Shown here: positions 21,076-56,330 of the stretch, one piece after another
Position numbering within the stretch: position 1 is the first letter of the stretch
How the letters are laid out: every line of letters starts with the position of its first letter
Source of the DNA: Diplonema papillatum
Lineage: Eukaryota; Euglenozoa; Diplonemea; Diplonemida; Diplonemidae
Length of the DNA: 64,000 bases
NCBI GenBank assembly: GCA_030068145.1
Contig: JAPJBO010000079.1
Location: forward strand, 124,001-188,000
Direction: 5' to 3'
Notes under the pieces: generated by a model
Databases searched by the model: none
What the model was told of the DNA's origin: nothing
Seen by the model: the letters and a program-made list of their open reading frames with translations, nothing else
Position numbers and translations under genes: made by a program

Positions 21076-23003
21076 GCGCTTGTTCTGTGCTTGGCGCTGT
21101 CGGCTTCGTTCGGCGGGTGCGCGGCTGCGGCAGCATGCTGCGGTTGGGGTTGTGGGAAGCCTGTTCTCGGAATCGATTTGGGCACGACGTATTCTGTAGT
21201 CGGGGTGTGGCAGAACGGCGGCGTGGATATCATTCCGAACGAAATGGCCTTCCGTCGTTGCTTTCACCGACACAGAACGGCTGATTGGCGACGGTGCGAA
21301 GAATCAGATCCATCAGAACCCCGCCAACACCATCAACGCGATCAAGAGACTCCTCGGCCGGCAGTACACGGATCCGGTATGCTGAGGTTTCAGATTGTGT
21401 GCAAGACGGAACGCTGAGCTGCATTCTTCTCGAGTTTTCTGTACACCCGGTTTCGATGTCCTCTCACCCACACACTCACTTAGCACAACACAGACGACAG
21501 CTGCCTCTTCGCAGATTCGCACGCCTGCCGTAGTCTCGCAACAGCTCCTGGGTTCTTCCTCACGTCCACTCCGTGCTTCCTCTCCACCACCTTCGCCACG
21601 TGCTCCACCATCCGATTGTCCAAGTCCTCTCCTCCAAGGTGCGTGTCCCCGTTCGTTGAGAGCACCTCGAAGAACCCGTTGTCCACATTCAGCACCGACA
21701 CGTCAAACGTCCCGTCCCCCCAGTCGAACACCAACACGTTCTCATTCCCGGTCTGCGACTTCTCGTCCAGTCCGTAAGCCATCGCTGCCGCCGCCGGCTC
21801 GTTCAACACTCGCAGGCACCGTCACCACCGCGTCTTCAACCGTCGTCCCCAAGTAGTCCTCCGCGATCTGCTTCATCTTCCCCAGCACCATCGCCGACAC
21901 TTCTTCCGCGCTGTACTCCCGAGCTTCTCCTTTGAACGTCACATCCACCTTTGCTTCCCCGTTCTTTCCCCGTACCACTTCGTATCCCAACAGTTTTCTG
22001 AAACGGAGGCACGAATCGAGGTGGAGGGGTTGATGGAGGGAGTGTCGGTGTCGGAGAAGATGACGCGGGAGAAGTTCGAAGAGCTGAACGACGACCTGCT
22101 GAAGGGGGCGCTGCGCTATGTGAAGGCGGCACTGGAGGACGCGGGTCTTGACAAGAGCGCGATTGACGAGCTGGTGCTGGTGGGCGGGTCGACGCGGATA
22201 CCGAAAATCCGACGTCTGATCAAAGAGTTCTTCAACGGGAAGACACCACACAAAGGCATCAACGTGGACGAGTCTGTGGCGTACGGAGCAGCGGTGCACG
22301 GTGCGGTGCTGAGTGGAGCCAGCGACGTGCACGCGTAGGTTACCGACGTGACGCCGCTGTCTCTGGGATTCGAAACAGCAGGCGGGGTGATGACGAACGT
22401 TGTCGACCGCGGGACTGGAGTGCCCGTGTCGAGACGAGGACGTTCTCGACGCACCACGACCAGCAAACAGGAGTTTCGATCCAAGTGTTCGAAGGCGAGC
22501 GCTCGCTGACGAAGAACAACCACCTGTTGGGCCGCTTCGAGCTCAGCGGCATCCCCGCTACTCCTCGCGGCGTGCCGCAGATCGACGTGACGTTCTCTGT
22601 TGACGAAGGCGGCATGCTGCAGGTGCGCGCAGAGGACAGAGCCTCGAAGTCGGCGAACGACATCACCGTCGAGAACGCCACCGGACGCCTCTCGCCAGCT
22701 GACATCCAGCGAATGGTCGACGAGGCTGCTGAACTCGCGGAAGAGGACAAAGTCGTGCGAGACAACATCGACGCCCGCAACGCGTTGGAATCCGCCGCTT
22801 ACTCCTGGAAGCTGCAGATCAACGATGAAGACAAGCTCGCCGGCAAGCTGCTTCCCGAAGAGGCACACGACATAGCCGCCGCCGTTGCTGACGCCGATGC
22901 CTCCAAACAGAAACTCGACCAGTTCAATGCCATCACGCATCCCATCGCTGCCAAGTATTATTCGCAGCATAGTGGTGCCGACGAAGAAGACGAACTCTGG
23001 TAG
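21076..23003 (+). pseudogene. ER-type HSP70 (BiP-like) pseudogene with internal inversion
   Basis: Three blocks of an HSP70 are present. Block 1 (21076-21376, +) has a hydrophobic signal-like leader without an in-frame ATG, then [18 protein letters not shown], and reaches [10 protein letters not shown]. It carries a small deletion and frameshift after IIPNE (about 21244). Block 2 (21492-21997) is on the opposite strand. Block 3 (22000-23003, +) resumes with [10 protein letters not shown], includes [26 protein letters not shown] and [18 protein letters not shown], and ends DEEDELW. Block 3 has a TAG at 22336 and a frameshift near 22425. The leader and the near-terminal EDEL point to an ER-lumen chaperone, although a Trp follows the EDEL. 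A stop, several frameshifts and the inversion mean it cannot encode a normal HSP70. Block 1 ends at GTATGC, matching real donors here. Confidence 0.85.
21492..21997 (-). pseudogene. inverted middle segment of the HSP70 pseudogene
   Basis: Read leftward from 21997 it gives [19 protein letters not shown], then a stretch ending EDAVVTVPA, then in another frame [48 protein letters not shown] and [11 protein letters not shown]. These are consecutive HSP70 ATPase-domain pieces that belong exactly between blocks 1 and 3. About 25 residues after VVTVPA (the usual YFNDSQRQATKDAG region) are deleted. The right breakpoint abuts block 3 with at most a few bases lost. The left is separated from block 1 by about 115 bp of unrelated sequence, possibly intron. 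Confidence 0.85.
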
Positions 23004-31600: not shown

Positions 31601-32463
31601 AGCATCAACAGCTTCAACAGCTACTTACTACTACTGCTTTGTGTAAGAAATACTCGAGGAGGGCATCCGGTTGCGAATTGTGAATTCCTTCCTGTGATAC
31701 TCATCACAGTGCCGATGATTCCCCGCCAACGCAACGAGTATGTTATGTATTGTGTTTGCCTCCGCATACTGATAGGCATCGGGCGGCCGTAGCATGTCTC
31801 AAAAAATCCACGCGCAGAAAACGCAGCAACTGCACAAGCGGAAGCCGTCTATTCCGTCCCCGAGTTCGGCCTTCAGCTCCAAGACTGGAGGGAGCGGTGT
31901 CTCTTCTTCTTCCTGCGACAGCGGACCGTCGGTATGCCTACCATTTCGTTCACTTCAGCGCAAACGGTCAGACGCGACATGCACGTCGTGTTGCGCACCC
32001 GGCGGTTGTGACGCAGAGCAGCCACTTCACGAAACACAGCACCATCATCACTCCGTTGTCTGAGCCAACCCACCCCTGCTGACAGACCGTGCACCGTGCT
32101 TAGGCAGACAGTCCCGCCAACGAACTGTGGTACTTTTGATAGTGCAAAGTGGGCAGCCGTTAGAATGCAAAGTAAGCATCCATATTCAAGGGATATTGCA
32201 ATCGTCGATCCTCGTCACGCAAGCCTTGAAACCGCAAGCGGCCGCCTACGACACTGTGTCGTCTGTTTCTTGAAGGGAGCACGCAGGATTGTCATTAAAC
32301 AACCCGGACCCGAACAGCTCAAAGTGTCACTTGAAACCAAAAACCGCAGGCGGCCGCCTACTTCCCGCCGCAATGGTTCTGTCCGACCCCGTACCCGGTG
32401 CAGTGGATGCCCCACCACGGCTCCCACCCGCCGCCGCACTTCCACGGGGGCCCAGCCGGCTGA
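28632..32463 (+). CDS. proline/serine-rich protein, four exons joined
   Basis: Exons are 28632-29252, 30500-31537, 31818-31931 and 32350-32463. Every intron is phase 0 (207, 346, 38 and 37 codons; 628 residues). Donors are GTTTGC, GTATGT and GTATGC; acceptors CCCCCAG, CGCGCAG and ACCGCAG. The protein is largely disordered: a basic N-terminus, Ser/His/Pro-rich middle, a Gln/Pro stretch then PYTPAYPAYPPPHPYQYF at the start of exon 2, a Lys-rich block with one CKKCK, a His-rich run (near 31362), and a Trp/Pro/His C-terminus (FPPQWFCPTPYPVQWMPHHG). Two amphipathic helices in exon 2 (LRRNLEAILREEILSAKEA and SHMVDRLMSAFRNSRKT) may be binding sites. No family recognised. The composition suits a scaffold of RNA granules or cytoskeleton, which is a guess. 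The start follows a pyrimidine-rich leader. Confidence 0.72.
29495..30040 (+). repeat. three CATGAGAGGCAG-family copies inside intron 1
   Basis: Copies start near 29495 (GACTTGATGCTGCATCAAACGT), 29920 (GACTTGATGTTAGCATCAATC) and 29990 (GATGGTATCATCAAGCGCGC). Each has the imperfect GATG...CATC palindrome, then GCATGAGAGG or similar. Confidence 0.55.
30211..30400 (+). repeat. 59-bp tandem repeat, about three units
   Basis: The AATGCTTAACGG start recurs at 30272, 30331 and 30391. An earlier partial unit at 30211 differs by an insertion. It lies about 100 bp before exon 2 of the proline-rich gene. Confidence 0.85.
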
Positions 32464-32487
32464 GTGTGTAGAGCAGGGTCGCCGCTG

Positions 32488-33003
<516 letters not shown>

Positions 33004-43249: not shown

Positions 43250-43654
43250 TTTGCATATGCACCTGCTTTGTAGGAAATACTCGACGAAACTCAGTAGCTG
43301 GCAGCGCACATACAAAAGGAAGCATGTACCCAGACTGACCCAAGTTTACAAGGGCGCCATCCGCCTCATGAGAATATTATGTCAACCCGAGAGGCTCACA
43401 CAAAGCGACTTCACAACACAATGACCCCCGCCGTTTGCCCGCGCTTGACCTGGTCCCTCAGCGTTGACTCTCAGGGCACTGGGCAGAAGTTAATTACACC
43501 ACAGCATTTCGCTTCGTCACAGCGGTTGCTAGTGGAATGTGGCGAGTGGATTCCTCTTGTTCGTAACAGTTCCAAGCTGGAACTGCATTGTATGCGCAAG
43601 AACCAGTCCAAATAAGAGGGAAGAGGCAGGGTTTTGGAGGGGCAGTGTGCAACC

Positions 43655-45703
43655 ATGGCCCGATCCTGCGCCGCGCTGCTGCCCATCGCCGTTTTAATGG
43701 CGCAGCGCGCCGCGGCGGGGCCCTGCGGCGGGCTGGGCTGCGCCGGCGACATGCCGGACGCGGACGTATTTTTCGAGAGGATGCAGGTGCCGGCCTTCGA
43801 AGTGCCCCTCCTTGGCGGCGGCAGCTACGTCGTTGACCCTGCCTTCCCGCACAAGCCGGTGGTGGTCCTCGCAAGGAGGAGCGACGACCTGTTCACGGAG
43901 TTCATGACCACAGACCCGGCCGGCGTTGATACGTTCTTCCAAATCACCCCGAAGCCAGACGTCGACTTCATCTTCCTGTCCCACGACAACGCGTCGTGGA
44001 CGGCTGCGTTCCGGAACGTGCTCGACGCGCGCATCAAGGCCCTCGGCGAAGACCCAGCGTACTGGAACAGCCACCTGTTCTACGCTTCAGCCACCGTGCA
44101 GGAAATGGAGGCCATGGACCCAACGAACCGTGACCCAGCCGTTCCGTCCAGCAACGTGATCGCCCGCGTGATGCGGGCGCCCCCTTTCCTCAGCATCCAG
44201 AAGCTGCTCCTGTTCGAAGCGGCGCCCGGCGTCGTGGCCAACGTCTCGCGGTTGGACGGGCTCTTCCAGTTCACGAACCCGCAGGACTTGACGAATCACG
44301 CCCCGGCGAACCCGTTGAACGGCAGCCTGTTTGTGTACAACGCCAGCTCGCTCTGCGGGGGTCCGGCGCCGGGGGACCTGACCGGCCAGTTTCCGTTGAT
44401 TTTGCTGGAGGACGTGCCGTCCTCGTGCTCCATCGAACAGGTATTCGAGTACTTCCAGAACTCGAATGCTCCGGGCATCCTGTTCATGGGCCGCGAGGGA
44501 CAAGAAATCCGGCCCGTCGGCATCACAGTGACGGGGAACGTGGTCACCGGTTCGTACACAATGGGCACGACGCTCCCGTACAACCGCGCCCTTGCGAACG
44601 GGCCGGCTGCGGGTTCGGGCGGGGTGAAGGCCGTGTTGAAGTACCACTTCGCGGCGGGGCAGTACTTCGGCGTGACGCGCGACAGCCGGCTCCTCCAAAT
44701 AGGCTCGCCGATCAATCCGTACCTCGACACGGTGTCGTTCCAAGGGCAGTACCTGCAGTACCTCAGCAACCTGGGAGACCGCCTACGCGCCCCGGCTGTC
44801 GTCGTTCCGGTGTTCGAGGGCGTGGTGGGGAGCAACGTGACCACGGGGTCGACGGGCGCTGTGCGGACGTTGTCGAATTTGCCGCTCGCGCTGTTCGCTT
44901 CGAGTCTGTTCAAGAGGCTCGAGATCGAAATCGAGTTCGGCTGCGCGTCTGACTTCGAGTGCCCCGTGTGGGACCGTATCGTCACCGTGCAGATGACGTG
45001 TCCGGGGCAAGTTCAACCGCTCGAAATCGTCCGCTGGATCTCGCCCTACCGGAAGTCCGCGGGGCATTGGGTCGTCGACGTCTCGCCTCTCCGCCCGCTG
45101 TTCAACTCGACGGCGTGCTCTGTGGCGCTTTCCGGCTTTTCCTTCTCCCCGTACCACGAGCCGTGGGTGACCAGCCTGTCGCTCCGCCTCCTGCAGGGGG
45201 AGGCTTCGGACCTTGTCCCCAAAGCGGCGGTCCCGCTGTTCTCCGGAGGCACGTACGACGTCGGCTACAACAACCGCTCGGCCGTGACTGTGCCGATCCC
45301 CGCCGACACCGTGCGCGTCGAGCTTTACTCGGTCATCACCGGGCACGGGTCGGACGCCGACGGCTGCTGCGAGTTCGAAGCCATGCGGCACACGTTCGCG
45401 GTCAACCGGCAGGAGTTCAACGTCACGTTCATGGCCCCGCTCGACATGTACGGGTGCACCAAGAACGTGACCGACGGCACCGAGCCGAACGGGTTCGGCG
45501 CGTGGTGGTTCGGCAGGAACGGCTGGTGCAACGGAAACCGGGTCAAGCCGACCGTGCTGGACGTCACGAGCGTGGCGGGCTCGTCCGCCGTGGTCACCTA
45601 CTCGTCGCAGCGGTACGAACAGGCGACCAACACTTGGCGAAACCCCACGTGCAAACAGGCGTGTGGCAACGTTGTCATGTCCAGTTACTTAGTATTGTAC
45701 TGA
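43655..45703 (+). CDS. secreted PNGase F-like glycopeptide N-glycosidase
   Basis: The frame has 682 codons from ATG 43655; residues 1-21 form a signal peptide (MARSCAALLPIAVLMAQRAAA). The C-terminal 300 residues match the two jelly-roll halves of peptide-N4-(N-acetyl-glucosaminyl)asparagine amidase F. The first has FECPVWDRIVTVQM and EIVRWISPYRKSAGHWVVDV. The second has SVITGHGSDADGCCEF, a His and FAVN, then GCTKNVTDG...PNGFGAWWFGRNGWC, which I recall from eukaryotic PNGase F-like proteins. The N-terminal 350 residues are less familiar. The enzyme would cleave N-glycans from glycoproteins outside the cell or in a food vacuole. I did not map every catalytic acidic residue. The gene is intron-free. 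A decayed copy of its 3' part follows directly, and two chitinases lie downstream. The previous in-frame start is not ATG. Confidence 0.82.
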   Translation: MARSCAALLPIAVLMAQRAAAGPCGGLGCAGDMPDADVFFERMQVPAFEVPLLGGGSYVVDPAFPHKPVVVLARRSDDLFTEFMTTDPAGVDTFFQITPKPDVDFIFLSHDNASWTAAFRNVLDARIKALGEDPAYWNSHLFYASATVQEMEAMDPTNRDPAVPSSNVIARVMRAPPFLSIQKLLLFEAAPGVVANVSRLDGLFQFTNPQDLTNHAPANPLNGSLFVYNASSLCGGPAPGDLTGQFPLILLEDVPSSCSIEQVFEYFQNSNAPGILFMGREGQEIRPVGITVTGNVVTGSYTMGTTLPYNRALANGPAAGSGGVKAVLKYHFAAGQYFGVTRDSRLLQIGSPINPYLDTVSFQGQYLQYLSNLGDRLRAPAVVVPVFEGVVGSNVTTGSTGAVRTLSNLPLALFASSLFKRLEIEIEFGCASDFECPVWDRIVTVQMTCPGQVQPLEIVRWISPYRKSAGHWVVDVSPLRPLFNSTACSVALSGFSFSPYHEPWVTSLSLRLLQGEASDLVPKAAVPLFSGGTYDVGYNNRSAVTVPIPADTVRVELYSVITGHGSDADGCCEFEAMRHTFAVNRQEFNVTFMAPLDMYGCTKNVTDGTEPNGFGAWWFGRNGWCNGNRVKPTVLDVTSVAGSSAVVTYSSQRYEQATNTWRNPTCKQACGNVVMSSYLVLY

Positions 45704-45714
45704 ACTGCCCTCAG

Positions 45715-46195
45715 CAAGTGAACCCCATCGAAATCGTCCGCTGGATCTCGCCGGAAGTCCGCGGGGCATTGGGTCGTCGACGTCTCGCCTCTCCGCCCGC
45801 TGTTCAACTCGACTCATGCTCGGTGGCGCTTTCCGGCCTTTCCTTCGCCCCTGACCCACGAGCCGTGGGTCACCGGGCACGCGGGTCGGACGCCGACGGC
45901 TGCTGCAGTTCGAAGCCATGCGGCACTTTCGAGTGGAGCCGAACCAGGAGATAACCGTAGGAACCGGCTATAAGGCTCAAACCCTCGGAACAACAAGGCT
46001 CCTCAGTGCGTTACGCCCGCCGGTCCATTCGGACTCGTATACGTTCGCGACGTCACGAGCGTGGCGGGCTCGTCCGCCGTGGTCACCTACTCGTCGCAGC
46101 GATACGAACAGGCGACCAACACTTGGCGGAATCCCATGTGCAAACAGGCGTGTGGCAACGTTGTCATGTCCAGCTACTTAGTATTGTACTTTGAT
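45715..46195 (+). pseudogene. decayed tandem copy of the PNGase F-like gene 3' end
   Basis: 45715-45850 repeats 45009-45170 nearly exactly (GAAATCGTCCGCTGGATCTC, GCCCGCTGTTCAACTCGAC). 45868-45930 repeats 45337-45400. 46045-46195 repeats 45560-45703 with only a few changes. The intervening parts are deleted and the frame is lost. The 3' block is closest to the parent, so the event is recent. Confidence 0.9.
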
Positions 46196-47084
46196 TCTAC
46201 CCCGCTCGACATGTACGAGTGTTACGCTGTTGTTAGCCTGAGCGTCCTTCGTGCCGCCTTTGCAGCAGCTTGGTGGTCTGATATACTACAGTTGTAGTAG
46301 GTTTCGGGCATTTTATCACACGCGCTCGTATTCCTGAACGGACACGAAGCCGAATATGCGCTTCATTTCCCTTTTGGCAGCACTTTTTGACAGCAGGCAC
46401 GCCTCTGAACAAAGCCCCCCGTTTTCAACAGCTCGCTCGTGAGCGGAGAGGTGTCACGCACCTGCTTTACTTCATGGAGGAACAGCGTTTCTACAACGGA
46501 CTGCTGCCCCCGCACAATACGTGTGCTGCGTTGTCGTATCAGATCTACCGGAGGCATCTTACTGCGAAAACAGGACTTCCTCTCCTCGAAAATACTATCG
46601 CTCCACGTTCTCGCTCAACAGCCGTACGCAGCACGGTTGAATCAGCGGCGATCTTTGATTCGCCGTAGTACACCGTCGCCCATTTTCTTCTTCATTCCAT
46701 TTTGTCACTTCAAGTCTCTGCAGTTCGCAGTCAGAGTCCGACACTGAACCAGCCGGTCACACATCGAGACATGTTGCTTGCACATCTCATGCTCTGTGCT
46801 TCGATATGTGACAGCGTGCTATGTTTGCATGGTGTTGCCAATGACCTCGCGTCGTCTACTCGTCGTAGAACTGCATCTTGCATCTGAGGTTCAACGAGAG
46901 AGAGAGAGCTACATGTGGGCATTCCCGACGGGAAATTTACTTTGAATCTCTCGAACTTCTGACCTAGTTACCCCGGCACATGGCATTCGGTCCTCTTCCT
47001 CTGTTGAACTTCAGAGAGCCACAATAGAACGTGCACAACTACAGGTGTCCACGTCACCTCTATACTGTTCATACTGCAAAACAC
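46196..47084 (+). other. intergenic between PNGase relic and chitinase
   Basis: No gene recognised. Frames near 46387-46750 have no coding bias. A short (GA)n tract lies at 46890-46903. Confidence 0.4.
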
Positions 47085-48104
47085 ATGATGCAACGTCTGC
47101 TCGCAGCGCTGCTGGTGAGTAGCAGCGTGGTTACCGCATACGACTGCAGGTCTCTGGCACCGTGGGCCAGCGCGGCCGCGTACAACGGCGGGTTAAAGGT
47201 GCAGTTCGGCGGCAACGCGTACGAAGCGAAGTGGTGGACGCAGGGGAAGAACCCGGCCGACCATTCGGGGGAGTGGGACGAGTGGAAGCTTTTGGGGGCG
47301 TGCGACGGGGCCCCGCCGTCGGTACCGGTGCCACCGACAGGCACTCCCACTCCCCACAGTGTGCCGACACCGCCCAGCGGGCAGTGCAGCGGGCAGCTGT
47401 ACTCGGCGGGGACGTGGTACGCCACCGGCACGTTGGTGTACAGCAACAACCAGCAGTACGAGTGCATCGTCGGCGGATGGTGCTCGTCGGTTGCTGGTTG
47501 GGCGTACGCGCCAGGCACAGGCACCGCTTGGACCCAGGCCTGGGCGGATAAAGGCGCCTGCGGCTCGAACAACGGGCCGCCCACGTCTCCTCCAACAACC
47601 CCGGCGACTCCGAGACCTTCCACACCGCCTTCTACGCCACCTACCTCCCCACCTTCAACTCCACCAACACCACCTTCAACACCGCCGGCCAGCGGGGATA
47701 GCATGGTGATCGGGTACTTCGTGGAGTGGGGCGTCTACGGGCGGAACTACCACATCAAGAATATTGCGGACAGTGGATCAGCCAAGCGCCTGACTCACAT
47801 TGTGTACTCGTTCGGGAACGTCCAGAATGCTGAATGCAAGATCGGAGACTCCTACGCAGCGTACGACAAGGCGTACAGTGCCGCGGACAGTGTTGACGGC
47901 GTTGCGGACACGTGGGACACCGGTGCGCTCCGTGGCAACTTCGGGCAGCTGCGTAGGTTGAAGAAGTTGTACCCGAACATCAAGGTGGTGTGGTCCTTCG
48001 GTGGGTGGACGTGGTCAGGGGGCTTCGGAGCGGCGACGGCACAAGCAACGAGCTTCGCAGACAGCTGCTACAAGCTTGTGTACGACTCCCGATGGTCTGA
48101 CGTG

Positions 48105-48136
<32 letters not shown>

Positions 48137-49358
48137 GAACGACTGCGGGTTGAGCTGCGACACGAGCGGTTTCAGCGGGTACAAAACGCTGATGAAAGCA
48201 CTCCGGGACCGATTCGGAAAAGACAAACTCGTAGTTTCCGCCATTGGTGCAGGCGAGTCGAAACTGAAGGCAGCCGACTACGGAGGTGCAGCTCAATACG
48301 TTGACTTCTACAATGTGATGACATACGACTACTTCGGAGGTTTCAGCCCGACGGGACCAACGGCACCTCACTCGCCTCTGAACGACTACGACGGAATTCC
48401 GGTGGCAGGGTTCTACTCAAGCAACGCTGTGCAGGTGATGAAGGGCCTCGGCATTCCGGCAAACAAGATCAACCTCGGGATTGGGTTCTACGGTCGTGGA
48501 TGGACGGGTGTTACACAAGCTGCCCCGGGGGGGTCTGCGACGCAGGCAGCCGCAGGAACGTACGAAGCAGGCATTGAAGATTACAAGGTTCTGAAGACGA
48601 GCTGCCCTGCCACTGGAACCGTGGCCGGTACCGCATACGCTTACTGCAACGGCAACTGGTGGGGATACGACACGCCGTCTACCATTGCTGGGAAGATGAC
48701 ATACGCAAAGCAGCAGGGTCTTGGTGGGGCGTTCTTCTGGGAACTGAGTGGAGACACGACAACTGGCGAGCTCATCAATGCCATTGGCAATGGACTGGGG
48801 GGCGGAGCTCCACCTCCGTTCATCATCGTACTGCCACCACTGACACCGCCAACCACCCCCACGAATCCGACACCACCATCCACGCCTCCATCCACGCCTC
48901 CATCCACACCGTCTACGCCTTCGCAGCCAAGCACGCCGCCGACGAGCGGGGACAGCATGGTGATCGGGTACTTCGTGGAGTGGGGCGTCTACGGGCGGAA
49001 CTACCACATCAAGAACATTGCGGACAGTGGATCAGCCAAGCGCCTGACTCACATTGTGTACTCGTTCGGGAACGTCCAGAACGCTGAATGCAAGATCGGT
49101 GACTCCTACGCAGCGTACGACAAGGCGTACAGTGCCGCGGACAGTGTTGACGGCGTTGCGGACACGTGGGACACCGGTGCGCTCCGTGGCAACTTCGGGC
49201 AGCTGCGCAGACTGCGGAAGTTGTACCCGAACATCAAGGTGGTGTGGTCCTTCGGTGGGTGGACGTGGTCAGGGGGCTTCGGAGCGGCGACGGCACAAGC
49301 AACGAGCTTCGCAGACAGCTGCTACAAGCTTGTGTACGACTCCCGATGGTCTGACGTG

Positions 49359-49390
<32 letters not shown>

Positions 49391-50057
49391 GAACGACTGC
49401 GGGTTGAGCTGCGACACGAGCGGTTTCAGCGGGTACAAAACGCTGATGAAAGCACTCCGGGACCGATTCGGAAAAGACAAACTCGTAGTTTCCGCCATTG
49501 GTGCAGGCGAGTCGAAACTGAAGGCAGCCGACTACGGAGGTGCAGCTCAATACGTTGACTTCTACAATGTGATGACATACGACTACTTCGGAGGTTTCAG
49601 CCCGACGGGACCAACGGCACCTCACTCGCCTCTGAACGACTACGACGGAATTCCGGTGGCAGGGTTCTACTCAAGCAACGCTGTGCAGGTGATGAAGGGC
49701 CTCGGCATTCCGGCAAACAAGATCAACCTCGGGATTGGGTTCTACGGTCGTGGATGGACGGGTGTTACACAAGCTGCACCGGGGGGGTCTGCGACGCAGG
49801 CAGCCGCAGGAACGTACGAAGCAGGCATTGAAGATTACAAGGTTCTGAAGACGAGCTGCCCTGCCACTGGAACCGTGGCCGGTACCGCATACGCTTACTG
49901 CAACGGCAACTGGTGGGGATACGACACGCCGTCTACCATTGCTGGGAAGATGACATACGCAAAGCAGCAGGGTCTTGGTGGGGCGTTTTTCTGGGAACTG
50001 AGTGGAGACACGACAACTGGCGAGCTCATCAATGCCATTGGCGATGGACTCGACTAA
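47085..50057 (+). CDS. secreted chitinase with two chitin-binding modules and two GH18 domains
   Basis: The frame has 990 codons from ATG 47085. Residues 1-17 are a signal peptide. Residues 19-75 and about 105-162 are two aromatic CBM5/12-like modules (AYEAKWWTQGKNP; QQYECIVGGW). A Pro/Thr-rich linker follows, then GH18 domain 1 (about 205-570), another Pro/Thr linker, and GH18 domain 2 (about 623-990). Both GH18 domains keep the S-x-G-G-like strand (VVWSFGGW), the catalytic FDGIDIDWEYP with the acid Glu, the substrate MTYDYFGG and the closing AFFWELSGDT Trp. GH18 enzymes hydrolyse chitin by substrate-assisted retention. The two domains are nearly identical at DNA level (47698-48795 versus 48954-50045). 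The start was chosen over 47031 because the sister gene at 53188 starts at the same MM. Intron-free. Confidence 0.93.
48795..48950 (+). other. inter-domain Pro/Thr linker of the double chitinase
   Basis: Encodes PPLTPPTTPTNPTPP and repeated PSTPPSTP units. It is the only sizeable sequence separating the two GH18 copies and was probably derived from the linker before domain 1. Confidence 0.7.
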
Positions 50058-50532
50058 CAGTGCACGACACGGCACAATCCTTCCTGTACGACATTGCAGA
50101 GCGTCTGAACAAAAAACGAGAACCCACGTAAACTCAGTATTTCTCGCATTGCTCCAGAAAGCAATCACCCACCTAACGCACCGCTCCGTACAAGTGGCAG
50201 CATATCTGTTTTGACGATTTTTTAAAGAAGTAGGCAACGCTGCTCACGAAGGCAGTATCTCGGAACTAACCGAGACCTGTGTCGTGAGAGAAAAATGCGA
50301 GGAACATCTACGAATTCCCCTCTCTTCTGCAGCTCACAACGGAGAGACGCAGGTGCCCTGTTTCTATGCGAGAGCTCAACCTCATGAACCTTTCTCACAC
50401 CCAGTATTGTCTCTGTCACGACACGCCACGTGGGCAACCCTGAGACGTACTCAACCGTCATCAGGCGACAACAAAATAGCGCTAACGCCACTTCGACCCA
50501 TGCGTGCTTGATCTCATATATTTTTGTTGTTG

Positions 50533-50549
50533 TTTTTTTTTTTTTTTTT
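50533..50549 (+). promoter_or_regulatory. 17-nt poly-T followed by GCGCAG
   Basis: Resembles a strong 3' splice site but no exon with coding bias follows. Recorded as an unexplained tract. Confidence 0.25.
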
Positions 50550-50840
50550 GCGCAGACCCGTCGAACAGCCTCGGTCCGAGAATATCGCCGAGGGTGGGGG
50601 GAAGCAATAACTTAGTCGCGCACTGCCTTCCGCTCCTTTTCTTGCTCTGTCTGCGTCGCATGGAGAAAGGATGGGGGGGTCGGACACCGGGTTGCTCATT
50701 TGCCGAGATGTGGAAACTCGAGGTGGTACGTGATGTATTCCACCTCATCAGGAGCATCAGGAGGTGGGTGAGTACCGCATCTCCAAGTAGGGTACTTATC
50801 CCGAGGATCTCCCGATGCATGGTATCTACGTATATCCACA

Positions 50841-50915
50841 CACGTAGTACTACGTGGTGGTGTGTACACGTACACACCATCTGTAGGTAGGTACGCTACA
50901 CGTACCTACCTACAG
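50841..50915 (+). repeat. cluster of three near-perfect hairpins
   Basis: CACGTAGTACTACGTG (50841-50856) is a 16-bp perfect palindrome. 50858-50879 has 10-bp arms (TGGTGTGTAC / GTACACACCA) around AC. 50881-50915 has 15-bp arms (CTGTAGGTAGGTACG / CGTACCTACCTACAG) around CTACA. They are directly adjacent. Confidence 0.85.
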
Positions 50916-50949
50916 ATTACCTATATACCCTGTCGTGGTGGTATGTGGT

Positions 50950-52800
50950 GATACCCCTTGATTGCCGAAGTGGCATCCCTTTGTCCTTGTCTATGCGACC
51001 TTCGTGGAAAACCGTGTTGGGCGGCCGCGGCCACCTCTTTGCAGCAGAACTACGCAACCGGCCAACGGGTCGGGGTGAGAACGTTCTCTTGCACTCGAGC
51101 CTCGGGTGGGGGGCTCAGCATTCCCCCCTTCACTTTCCCGAACGCCTGCATCGGGAAGCTTCGGTTCGCGTCGACACGACTCCTGCAGACAAAAAAATCT
51201 TTCGAGAGACGAACCGTGCCGTGGACGCCAAGGGGCATCAATTTCAAGGAGGAAGTTCCAAACGGCGCTTGGGCAGCCGCACACGGCCCGCAGGGAACCC
51301 GCCGTGCGTTGCCCGCTTGGACTTCCACGGTCCTGTTCCGATCTCGGTCTCGTTGTTCCTCCCTTCCTTCCTATGCTCAGAATGAACAGAACCGTTCCAT
51401 GAATCCGGCAAGCAAAGCCCAAAATAAAGAGAATCTTTCGTAGCGGAAAATAATACAAATCAACCTCGCGTGTGAGGGGTGATGCGCCTAGTTGTTTGTG
51501 CGTATAAGTACTCACCCGTTTTGGTAATTCCCACAGTACGCTGCCAACTGTCACTTGTTTGATAGTGACAACCGCCGTTGTTACCATGTTAAATCTAAAG
51601 CGAGGCCGCCAGACGCCAGAGCGACGTAAAAAAAATCGACGACGGCACGCAGAAAACGGAGAATTGCAAATTGTTGTGTTACATACGCGCCAGCTTGAAA
51701 GGAAATGCTCGACGATGCTGCCCGACTAAGAACAGAAGGGATCCCAAGTGCTGTAACTACTGAACCAACCACGTGTTGAACGGACGTGAGGTCGTGCGGG
51801 TCTACCCCAACACGACAAATCACACAAACACAACAGGTCAAAGTCCTGAGTGAGAAAGCAACACACGGTGGTGTAAGCGAAGAACAATCAGATTGTGTTT
51901 GTATTGCATTTGCCCCTTGCCTCTATATTTCCTCCCTTCCATTCGGAGTCGAAGCAGCAACGTCGAGTATTTCAAGTCTGCATGCCGACGACTAGGTGCA
52001 CTCTCCCAACAAGATGAAAAAAAAGTATCCACCCAGGCAACCGATAAGCGTTCACCGCCGCCAGCACAAAGTCCCTCGGGATCGACGGTGCACGCGAAAA
52101 ATGGCAAACAGAAGGGGGGGAAGAAAGCAGCGAGCACAACACGTCAGGCCGACGGGAGACAGGGACGTTGCTCCTCAACCCAGGCCAAGTGGGCAGGGCG
52201 GGTCGATGTCCAGGAGTTCCTCGAGACACTCAAGGCTCTTCCTTTCAATGATTTCGCCAACCGTAGAATACTCGAGTCATGCATAGCACGCTCATCCCCT
52301 CCGTTGGTTTATTCCAGCCGCATTCAATGCGCGGAACTAACCGCAGAACAGAACACCCGGGGTGTACTAGTGCATCTGCTACCAGTTGCATGCTGAGAGA
52401 GCAGTACCCGGCTGCGAGATGGTGCGCGGTTGTGGTTCCTATAGGCATGATGCTATCGACGAGGGAGCTCTATAAGCCTCGCCCCTCTGCTCTCCTGTTA
52501 TCTTGTCTTGAGATGCTTGCAAATTCCACCGTGTCCCTTCCCCCCCCCCTTTAATATTCTTCGCAGTGGAAGGACGCCACGCGAGAGAGCCGAGCGGAGT
52601 GTTAATTTGGTTTCATCACTCCGTGCCGGCCGAAACTTCCCTCCCTCTCACAGAACTGAACAAATATCCCGCTGCGAAAGCACTTTTTCTTGAGGAACAA
52701 TACAATACAAAAAGTGTCTCTGCATCCGCCTTTTTCCACTCGACGCCCACATCTGCATCCCATGGGCAAGAATTCTCGGAACACCCGGGGAAAAAACTTC
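50950..52800 (+). repeat. segmental duplication, copy A (downstream of chitinase 1)
   Basis: Blocks shared in the same order with 55200-56330 include GATTGCCGAAGTGGC (here) / AATTGCCGAAGTGGC, CACGGTCCTGTTCCGATCTCG, GAACAGAACCGTTCCATGAAT, AGCACAAC(A)CG(T)CAGGCCGA, GTTAATTTGGTTTCATCACTCCG and TTTTTCTTGAGGAAC. This copy carries an extra insertion at about 51490-51975. No coding frame is supported, although one at 51893-52396 is open. Confidence 0.75.
51665..51975 (-). repeat. inverted copy of the 28.2-kb dispersed repeat
   Basis: Reverse complement of 28165-28430, interrupting copy A of the segmental duplication relative to copy B. It is therefore younger than, or lost from, the other copy. Confidence 0.75.
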
Positions 52801-53187
52801 GATAGTAGGGGGGGTCGATGATCTAGTTCGTTACCGGAATTAACCAAGCGTTTCACTCCATCAACCGGTCAGGGCCCGGTGGGTTTATTGTGTTGTTTGT
52901 GCGTATAAGTCGATCTTTGAGTGCGTGAGCCCCTCCGAAGAAAGGTCCATCACACTTGTGTTGTTTGTGCGGCTTTCGAACGCATCGAATGCGCAAAAAC
53001 GCCGCTGATTTTGCCATCGCCGCGGCTGAGGTAGCGTCCTACGTCACCCGCTGGCATGCACTGACTCCTGCCAAAGAGACACGAGAATTACAGGGCGTCG
53101 TCCTTCTGGCGCTTCAAGCTAGTTGTCCGCAACGATTTTTCCACAATCCCAGGTGCCAGGCACACTCTCTGTATTTCTACACTCTAC
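52801..53187 (+). other. intergenic upstream of chitinase 2
   Basis: TTGTTTGTGCGTATAAGT at 52891 repeats 51491-51508. No other feature seen. Confidence 0.4.
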
Positions 53188-54192
53188 ATGATGCGCCTGC
53201 TCGCGGTGCTGCTGGTGGGGACAAGCGTTGTTTCAGCGTACGATTGCAGCTCCCTGTCATCATGGGCCAGCGCGAGTGTGTACACCGGCGGTTTGAAGGT
53301 GCAACATGATGGCAAGGCGTACGAAGCGAAGTGGTGGACGCAGGGGAAGAACCCGGCAGACAATTCGGGGGTTGATGACGAGTGGAAGCTTTTGGGCACG
53401 TGCGCAGCGGTAACGCCGCCGTCAGTCCCTGTGCCGCCGACAACCACTCCCACTCCGCCCAGTGTGCCGACGCCGCCCAGCGGGCAGTGCAGCGGGCAGC
53501 AGTACTCGGCGGGGACGATGTACGCTCTCGGCGCTTTGGTTTACAACAGCAACCAACAGTACGAGTGCATCGTTGCCGGATGGTGCTCGAATGGTGCTGC
53601 TGCTGCTTGGTACGAGCCAGGCGTAGGCACCGCATGGACCGATGCATGGACAGCCAAAGGCGCCTGCGGCTCCAACAACGGGCCGCCTACGGCACCACCG
53701 ACAACCCCGACGACTCCGACACCTATCACACCACCCACCACGCCTTCAACAGAAACTCCACCTTCAACACCGCCGACGAGCGGGGACAGCATGTTGATCG
53801 GGTACTTCGTGGAGTGGGGCATCTACGGGCGGAACTACCACATCAAGAACATTGCGGACAGTGGATCAGCCAAGCGCCTGACTCACATTGTGTACTCGTT
53901 CGGGAACGTTTTGAACGCTGCATGCACGATCGGTGACACGTACGCAGCGTACGACAAGGCGTACAGTGCCGCGGACAGTGTTGACGGCGTTGCGGACACG
54001 TGGGACACCGGTGCGCTCCGTGGCAACTTCGGGCAGCTGCGTAGGTTGAAGAAGTTGTACCCGAACATCAAGGTGGTGTGGTCCTTCGGTGGGTGGACGT
54101 GGTCAGGGGGCTTCGGAGCGGCGGCGGCACAAGCAACGAGCTTCGCAGACAGCTGCTACAAGCTTGTGTACGACTCCCGATGGTCTGACGTG

Positions 54193-54224
<32 letters not shown>

Positions 54225-54891
54225 GAACGACTGCGGGTTGAGCTGCGACACGAGCGGTTTCAGCGGGTACAAAACGCTGATGAAAGCACTCCGGGACCGA
54301 TTCGGAAAAGACAAACTCGTAGTTGCTGCCATTGGTGCAGGCGAGTCGAAACTGAAGGCAGCCGACTACGGAGGTGCAGCTGAATACGTTGACTTCTACA
54401 ATGTGATGACATACGACTACTTCGGAGGTTTCAGCCCGACGGGACCAACGGCACCTCACTCGCCTCTGAACGACTACGACGGAATCCCGACGGCGGGCTT
54501 CTACTCGGACAAGGCTGTGCAGGTGATGAAGGACCTCAAAATTCCGGCAAGCAAGATCAACCTCGGGATCGGATTCTACGGCCGTGGGTGGACGGGTGTT
54601 ACCCAATCTGCACCGGGGGGGTCTGCTACGAAGGCAGCCACAGGAACATACGAAGCAGGCATTGAAGACTACAAGGTTCTGAAGACGAGCTGCCCTGCCA
54701 CTGGAACCATAGGCGGTACCGCATACGCTTACTGCAACGGCAACTGGTGGGGATACGACACGCCGTCTACCATTGCTGGGAAGATGACATACGCAAAGCA
54801 GCAGGGTCTTGGTGGGGCGTTCTTCTGGGAACTGAGTGGAGACACGACAACTGGCGAGCTCATCAATGCTATTGGCAACGGCCTGGACTAA
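53188..54891 (+). CDS. secreted chitinase with two chitin-binding modules and one GH18 domain
   Basis: The frame has 567 codons. Residues 1-17 are a signal peptide (MMRLLAVLLVGTSVVSA), followed by two CBM5/12-like modules (YEAKWWTQGKNPADNSG; QQYECIVAGW), a Pro/Thr linker and a GH18 domain from about residue 203. All GH18 landmarks are present (VVWSFGGW, FDGIDIDWEYP, MTYDYFGG, AFFWELSGDT). The layout equals the first half of the gene at 47085, so one arose from the other by duplication plus gain or loss of a GH18 unit. Much of the GH18 DNA is identical to both domains of the first gene, but patches differ clearly (for example 54483-54560), a mosaic typical of gene conversion. Intron-free. Downstream DNA is part of the same duplicated segment. 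Confidence 0.93.
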
Positions 54892-55199
54892 CAGTGCACG
54901 ACATGACAGCACACATTAACTTACAAACAACAACAACAACCATCAACGTTTCCGACGCTTTGCAGCAGTTCCCTTTCCCTTCTTCAGCTTACCCAAGAGG
55001 AAGACCTGGTTGCAACTCAAAGCTCTCGATTCGTCACGGGCGTCCCCAAGACTCGCCTGATCATGACAACTCGAATCTCGACCAACGCTTGCATTTTTCA
55101 TTTTCGCGCCGTCGATCAGCTCCGTTTCTCGCTTTATCTGCATCGCATGGCGAAGTTGGCAGTGGGCGGGCGCCGCCGGAAGCCGTGTGCCGCTCTTAT
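54892..55199 (+). other. 3' flank of chitinase 2
   Basis: Begins ACAGTGCACGACA, as after chitinase 1 (50058), so the duplication includes the immediate 3' flank. (CAA)n at 54925-54940. Nothing else seen. Confidence 0.45.
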
Positions 55200-56330
55200 G
55201 CCCACGCAATTGCCGAAGTGGCGTCTCCTTGTCCTTGCCCTCGCCCAGTTGACCGGTTAGTTCCGGCGGTCGCCGGCCACCTTCTTGCAGCAACTTACGC
55301 AACGACCAATCGTGTCAAGTAATGTTCACTTCCCTCAGCAGGTTGTCTGGCGAGGTGCCGGTGCCGCTCCAGTTGCCTTGACCCGGTTCCTGCGAAAATC
55401 CTTGACCTGTGCCGCGGAAGTGAGGGTACAATGCGGCGGGATCCTGAAGGTCGGACTGCGTAAACGAGCGCCGTCGGATCTTCCCCCCCGCCTGCAATGG
55501 ATGCCCGCCATCGGACTTCCGCGGTCCTGTTCCGATCTCGCTCTCTCGCTGTTTCTTCCATTGCTCATGAACAGAACCGTTCCATGAATCTAGCAAGCAA
55601 ATCCCCAACGAAAAAAGAACCTTTCGCACACACGGAATCAATACGAAGCAACACCACAGGGGGCGATGCACGTAGCTCATCAGCAAAAAAAGAAAACTCT
55701 CTTCTCGAACTCGATCGCCGGAAACACAAAACGGCGATTGTTCGTTTCTTGAGCTTTATCAAGCAGATGGAGAGAGTTTGCATGTCGATGACTCTTGCGA
55801 CAAACGGCCGAGTTGTTAAGTTTCTGCCAGAAAGACCAGGTGCATCGTCCCGATGAGGAAAAAAAGAAATGGTTGCTCCCCACAGGACGCGGAAAGAGAA
55901 GGGGAAGAAAAGGCAGAGCACAATACGCCAGGCCGATGGGAATGAAGTACGCTCCACGGATCCGAAACGGGGGAGGTCAATGACCAGATCCCCCTCCACC
56001 CCCGAGGTACCAAATAGCGTCTCCTCCGTTGAGTTTAACCCAAGCCGCATTTCCGGACGGAACCCGCTGCCGCAGGGCAGACGGCTCGGGACGTGTACGT
56101 CCAACGGCCACCGGTCGTATGTGCTTACTCTTGTCGGTCTTGAGGTACTCTCCGTCCCTTCCCCCATTCTGCGCTCAGTGGGAGGACACCACAGGGGCGA
56201 GCCTGGCGGAGAGTTAATTAGGTTTCATCACTCCGCGCCGGCCGGAACCCCCACGCTTCCCTCTCCCCCTCACTGAATCGAACGCACATCCCGTGGCGAA
56301 GGCAGTTTTCTTGAGGAACGCTTAAAAAAA
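55200..56330 (+). repeat. segmental duplication, copy B (downstream of chitinase 2)
   Basis: Partner of 50950-52800, with matching blocks in order and no 480-bp insertion. No supported gene. Confidence 0.75.

Follow-up and report, generated by a model that had tools for sequence, protein, structure and literature searches.

Two tandem chitinase genes in the nuclear genome of the diplonemid Diplonema papillatum appear, from their domain layout and their relatives, to descend from one bacterial gene acquired in a single event, most likely from a gammaproteobacterium. They lie in a 64,000-nucleotide stretch of contig C79 (JAPJBO010000079.1, positions 124001–188000), here called the window, whose own positions serve as coordinates below; a gene for an amidase of the PNGase F type lies upstream of them. 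The account preferred here, which is considered quite probable, is that a gammaproteobacterial-type chitinase gene was acquired once, copied in tandem and partly homogenized by gene conversion, and that the PNGase gene is a separate neighbor within a one-directional gene array. The features of the chitinase locus are as follows.

47085..50057, + strand: chitinase A, 990 aa, with a signal-like N-terminus, a CBM5/12 module, a second binding module and two GH18 domains
47706..48755, + strand: first GH18 domain of chitinase A (PF00704, 241.6 bits)
48960..50009, + strand: second GH18 domain of chitinase A (PF00704, 241.2 bits)
53188..54891, + strand: chitinase B, 567 aa, with a signal-like N-terminus, a CBM5/12 module, a second binding module and one GH18 domain
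53794..54843, + strand: GH18 domain of chitinase B (PF00704, 241.8 bits)
51310..51440, no strand assigned: piece of the chitinase A 3′ flank, 78% like 55502–55626
55502..55626, no strand assigned: piece of the chitinase B 3′ flank, partner of 51310–51440

Each chitinase is encoded by a single open frame (47031–50057, with the ATG at 47085 used as the start, and 53188–54891). Pfam's Glyco_hydro_18 is found over two stretches of chitinase A (6.1e-143) and in chitinase B (6e-71), and CBM_5_12 in both (7.2e-07 and 5e-08, respectively). All three GH18 domains cover profile positions 2–317 of 317, and the catalytic motif DxxDxDxE is intact in each as DGIDIDWE. The PNGase and chitinases A and B have a hydrophobic N-terminal stretch (Kyte-Doolittle 11-mer maxima of 2.57, 2.29 and 2.55), and the most hydrophobic later 19-mer of the three proteins averages 1.0–1.25, which does not suggest a membrane anchor. 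An earlier sequence-only reading of this DNA had given all three proteins signal peptides; the hydrophobic N-termini agree with that, and they are termed signal-like here because hydropathy, and not a dedicated signal-peptide predictor, is the basis. By prediction, both chitinases enter the secretory route and would be active, either secreted or delivered to the lysosome. The same reading was silent on the two GH18 domains of chitinase A, on the A/B duplication and on the broken copies of the PNGase 3′ half described below.

In the rest of the D. papillatum genome (271,365,524 bases in 2910 contigs were searched), the whole chitinase protein finds nothing better than a single weak match of 24.8 bits. 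None of the eight other matches to the GH18 family exceeds 64.8 bits, compared with about 241 bits for the domains in the window, in a search that sees exons singly. Two more GH18-like open reading frames (ORFs) lie about 6 kb apart elsewhere (G000:C164:49157-56145; L012 and L014), a possible second chitinase-like tandem pair.

Bacterial relatives of the chitinases

At least 591 GH18 relatives were confirmed in genome_contigs, and the best 80 of them comprise 73 from Actinomycetota, six from Pseudomonadota and one from Chloroflexota. The top match among them is a gammaproteobacterial protein from Reinekea sp. (L017), whose GH18 domain is 77% identical to that of the protist; the others are 66–74% identical. 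Matches are present in 33 of 293 genomes of Reinekea's order, seven of which have the close type (>590 bits), and in 9 of 22 genomes of its family, three with the close type. The bacterial genera of the close relatives are marine.

The kinship includes the binding modules, which were counted in stop-to-stop frames, some perhaps truncated at contig ends. A CBM5/12-like match is present in all 11 close gammaproteobacterial proteins (six named proteins and five others from Reinekea's order), in 11 of 73 actinobacterial proteins and in 6 of 15 distant gammaproteobacterial proteins; the second binding module is present in 8 of 11, 0 of 73 and 3 of 15 of these, respectively, and the single Chloroflexota protein carries both. 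The protist order of CBM5/12, second module and GH18 is matched by the proteins of Gilvimarinus (L021), a metagenome-assembled genome (L025) and Exilibacterium (L067), and five other close proteins have the two binding modules in reversed order. Together with the Reinekea protein, these three have GH18 domains 69–77% identical to those of the protist, and all four have a CBM5/12-like N-terminal module, but their linkers contain PKD-like repeats (by eye) where those of the protist are rich in proline and threonine, and the second GH18 domain of chitinase A sets it apart from them. Among solved structures the best relative is Streptomyces chitinase 4w5u, which matches the GH18 domain end to end (518 bits), and the next solved relatives drop to 192 bits; the 4w5u entry spans the catalytic domain, and the binding modules are unmatched there.

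Three GH18 trees were built, one of 104 rows that omits L097–L100 (the same genes as L017, L018, L021 and L037) and L121–L128 (weak or partial), and two in which the actinobacterial rows were thinned to one in three (25 of 73). In both thinned trees the three protist domains cluster as a single clade (100/100), surrounded by bacterial rows. In the 104-row tree they join Reinekea and two of its order-mates (Shimodaira–Hasegawa-like approximate likelihood ratio test 93), and the sole eukaryotic row, fungal 6igy, which is in this tree only, lies far off. The fork joining them to the Reinekea group is unresolved in the first thinned tree; in the second, rooted on the actinobacteria, they lie within nine gammaproteobacterial and one Chloroflexota rows (95/94). 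A phylogeny of this kind had been proposed along with the suggestion that all three genes of the locus might be of horizontal origin; that suggestion is supported for the chitinases, by their bacterial kinship and the trees, and is not shown for the PNGase, which has a zebrafish enzyme as its nearest solved relative and a small tree that does not decide between alternatives (see below).

The G+C content at third codon positions (GC3) is 0.70–0.71 in the chitinases, 0.87 in the PNGase gene and 0.79–0.90 in five other measured ORFs. The contig is 436,817 bases long and other ORFs flank the chitinases on both sides, which argues against contamination. As for a carrier, a scan of viral_contigs gave one stretch that matched a pattern and none that encoded a relative, and among 86 plasmid-collection records that match GH18, the best of which is an 11.85-Mb Nonomuraea record (70%), nothing specific was found. 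At least 96 bacterially acquired genes, some expanded by tandem duplication, are reported for D. papillatum, and four of the transferred families are carbohydrate-active enzymes (CAZymes) with 17 members (PMC10161547, cited here and below from part of its text). These published CAZyme transfers, of which GH115 is named, share with the chitinases the species, the bacterial origin and the tandem expansion; the chitinases, which may themselves belong to one of these four families, are a clear case of a process already on record.

Tandem copies and their uneven divergence

The alignment of chitinases A and B starts 2 nt ahead of the ATG and runs to 12 nt past the stop codon, in two segments (47083–48798 with 53186–54886, and 48844–50069 with 53693–54903), and beyond it four short 3′ flank matches of 78–90% identity are collinear. 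The one flank piece tested, 51310–51440, occurs genome-wide only there and in the other flank, in a search that skips very common words. The near-complete coding alignment and the collinear 3′ flanks point to a segmental tandem duplication.

The two copies have diverged very unevenly. Synonymous divergence (dS) between A and B is 0.46 over the 195 N-terminal codons and 0.107 over the 370 GH18 codons, and in the latter three 40-codon blocks are free of synonymous changes, whereas codons 441–480 reach a dS of 0.43. Of the 73 codons of the CBM5/12 block 24 differ at the third position, while of the 370 in GH18 27 do (Fisher p 3.6e-08). Over 1101 nt of DNA, the GH18 domain of B and the first one of A share 95.6% identity, and their longest identical run is 200 nt, compared with a mean of 94 nt for 10,000 placements at random (p 0.0017). 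The uneven dS and the clustering of differences suggest gene conversion between older duplicates, which explains the pattern best. The two GH18 domains of chitinase A are 98.9% identical in DNA over 1101 nt with a dS of 0.039, so the internal doubling should be either recent or recently converted. Ratios of nonsynonymous to synonymous divergence among the chitinase copies (0.08, 0.29 and 0.32) point to purifying selection. Catalytic domains are also doubled internally in pectin-degrading enzymes of D. papillatum (PMC12697944, likewise cited from part of its text).

The neighboring PNGase gene

Two features lie between position 43,655 and the chitinases.

43655..45703, + strand: gene for a long-form, Ngly2-like amidase of the PNGase F type, 682 aa (PF09113 1.2e-23; 9lwg E 3.7e-57)
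45714..46221, + strand: fragmented, incomplete copies of the 3′ half of the PNGase gene in scrambled order, 88–96% identical to PNGase pieces

The PNGase frame is 43634–45703 with its ATG at 43655, and coordinates and Pfam agree with the description of this locus as a PNGase F-like amidase and two chitinases, each in a single open frame on the + strand. The match to N-glycanase_C (PF09113) is above the cut-off, that to N-glycanase_N (0.011) is under it, and this gene is the sole PF09113 match in its genome. Its best solved relative, zebrafish 9lwg, is published as the acid PNGase Ngly2 (PMC12753239, cited from part of its text, from which the residue roles below are taken); the two are 32% identical over 436 aligned positions and share the same C-terminal end, with residues before 258 unmatched. 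Ngly2's catalytic Asp421 and Glu555 align with Asp440 and Glu573 of the window protein, the numbering of the 9lwg chain being shifted from that of the paper by a constant 25 for each of the four residues checked. His564 preserves His546, but His422 is replaced by Arg441, which corresponds to Arg61 of PNGase F; the protein is named Ngly2-like rather than Ngly2 because only one of the two active-site histidines is kept. An equivalent of PNGase F Glu118 was discarded because two alignments placed it differently. Ngly2 is lysosomal and active only at acid pH, and the likeness of the window protein to it is one of sequence.

Ahead of its PNGase domain, Ngly2 has thioredoxin-like and PA domains. The window protein is similar in length and contains a stretch that can be aligned as PA-like; its N-terminal 262-residue piece had no Pfam or solved-structure match, and the single-sequence AlphaFold model of the protein is poor (mean predicted local distance difference test score 37.9). 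Deinococcus radiodurans and one Chloroflexota genome have long-form homologs as well, which means that the family is not exclusively eukaryotic. The Deinococcus protein (WP_010889584.1) is 32% identical to the window PNGase over 305 positions, scores below zebrafish (124 vs 202 bits), and has a PA domain by Pfam, which Pfam does not detect in the window protein. In a six-sequence tree the window protein pairs with that of zebrafish (73/75), and two alternatives are not rejected by the approximately unbiased (AU) test (p 0.35 and 0.14).

The searches made found nothing that ties this gene to the chitinase donor. Among 369 genomes from the same class as the Gilvimarinus genome (G003) none matched the whole PNGase, in a search with no internal positive, and PF09113, for which the PNGase found in the D. 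papillatum genome was the positive control, matched 0 of 398 genomes of the Gilvimarinus phylum, 0 of 296 of the actinobacterial (G002) phylum and 2 of 301 of the Chloroflexota (G005) phylum, one of the two above the cut-off. On a Hymenobacter plasmid (L141, 954–5684) a PNGase F-related gene lies between GH27 and alpha-L-fucosidase genes, a bacterial glycan-degradation cluster. It is a tentative idea, with rather less than even chances, that the window PNGase is a natural hybrid which has the arginine of PNGase F beside the catalytic Asp and the histidine of Ngly2 near the catalytic Glu. A full-text literature search on diplonemid N-glycanase gave a single paper, on cell death in cyanobacteria, which suggests that this Ngly2-like gene is undescribed in the library searched. 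The scrambled copies downstream of the gene match its positions 45007–45172, 45336–45391, 45435–45456 and 45560–45701, and may be likened to the gene-end repeats described for D. papillatum (PMC10161547).

Gene neighborhood and competing explanations

Over 144 kb, 17 ORFs were selected as coding-like, and every one lies on the + strand. In D. papillatum generally, nearly 90% of contigs longer than 50 kb have one-directional arrays, with gene numbers from five to 120, and about 41% of genes have introns (PMC10161547). Thus, the common orientation of the PNGase and chitinase genes is real but expected, and the lack of introns, once taken as a hint of horizontal origin, is ordinary here and carries little weight. 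Ten ORF pieces from the 40 kb on either side of the window contain no CAZyme domain; three have Pfam matches above the cut-off, each of a different, unrelated kind (inositol-phosphatase-type, methyltransferase and cyclin), one has only matches below it and six have none. Within the window, what appears to be an Hsp70 gene, rearranged and in fragments, lies at 21742–23003, with a C-terminal piece on the + strand (PF00012 417–591, 5.3e-39) and an N-terminal piece on the − strand (81–142, 3.2e-16). At 32215–32925 a long dinucleotide repeat gives a − strand open frame in which Cys and Val alternate. Runs of pyrimidines that precede the genes, considered as spliced-leader acceptors, are uninformative by themselves.

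The sequence-only reading saw in the three genes a functional cluster. Such a cluster, in which selection would have favored joint transcription of PNGase and chitinases for the digestion of glycoprotein- or chitin-bearing food, could draw on their adjacency, shared strand and signal-like N-termini and on the nearly 500 CAZymes reported for this predatory species (PMC10161547), but two of its three members are tandem copies and unrelated genes fill the one-directional arrays. When the chitinases are counted once, a single adjacency, that with the PNGase gene, remains, and with about 500 CAZymes among about 32,000 genes (about 37,000 is also given; PMC10161547) a CAZyme neighbor is unremarkable; an estimated 3% or so of genes would have one directly beside them by chance. 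What lies here is a duplicated gene and a neighbor, not several independent related genes beyond the array background, so the cluster is not supported and is thought unlikely; the PNGase and the chitinases probably lack a joint role. Still more improbable is a joint arrival of all three genes from a bacterium with a PNGase–chitinase gene cluster. Bacteria do have long-form and short PNGase F relatives, one of them beside GH27 and fucosidase genes on the plasmid noted above, but the PNGase gene has a host-like GC3 and its best match in zebrafish, and the searches of the Gilvimarinus class and phylum, neither with an internal positive, found no counterpart.

A more substantial rival, though one with only a modest chance of being right, is that the chitinase donor was an actinobacterium, or a eukaryote that had taken the gene from one. 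Most of the best 80 relatives are actinobacterial, fungi are reported to have acquired orthologs of the Streptomyces chitinase chiJ by transfer (PMC3506478, cited from part of its text), and grouping of the protist domains with actinobacteria survives the AU test (p 0.068 and 0.116), which leaves more than one bacterial sister plausible. On the other hand, the top match is gammaproteobacterial, the second binding module is absent from all 73 actinobacterial proteins and a 95/94 branch parts the protist domains from the actinobacterial rows. Besides that AU result, several observations weigh against the account of a gammaproteobacterial gene copied beside an unrelated array neighbor. Reinekea, the closest relative, lacks the second module; the gene could have passed through another eukaryote before it reached the diplonemid, since 6igy was the single eukaryotic row available; the 5′ flanks of chitinases A and B, when compared, have no match; four of the 17 array ORFs trained the coding score, which leaves 13 independent, and one Hsp70-like piece in the window is on the − strand; and the genes are known here from their DNA, their expression and localization being presumed. 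A chitinase reported from the lysosome of D. papillatum (PMC12697944) may be A, B or the product of another gene.

In the preferred account, one bacterial chitinase gene, with its binding modules and GH18 domain and most likely of gammaproteobacterial origin, would have entered the diplonemid nuclear genome and then been duplicated in tandem along with its 3′ flank; the upstream copy would have gained its second GH18 domain by internal doubling, and gene conversion would have partly homogenized the copies in their GH18 parts. The binding modules would hold chitin while the acid at the last residue of DGIDIDWE cuts it by a substrate-assisted mechanism, so that chitin-bearing food could be digested extracellularly or in the lysosome. 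The Ngly2-like amidase would free N-glycans from food glycoproteins through Asp440 and Glu573 as a separate step, and its gene would sit beside the chitinases as one of many unrelated genes in a one-directional array.

The locus is a concise example of a modular bacterial enzyme that was taken whole into a nuclear genome and then duplicated, internally doubled and homogenized, and it illustrates that in such one-directional arrays neither a shared orientation nor a lack of introns tells much. The PNGase provides a test of what allows this enzyme fold to work at acid pH: if the putative hybrid is active, it would separate which histidine sets the acid optimum, and if it is truly a hybrid, Ngly2-type enzymes, which animals and some bacteria possess, would be represented in a deep protist lineage too. 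For the diplonemid itself, chitin digestion would join the predatory toolkit already reported for it.

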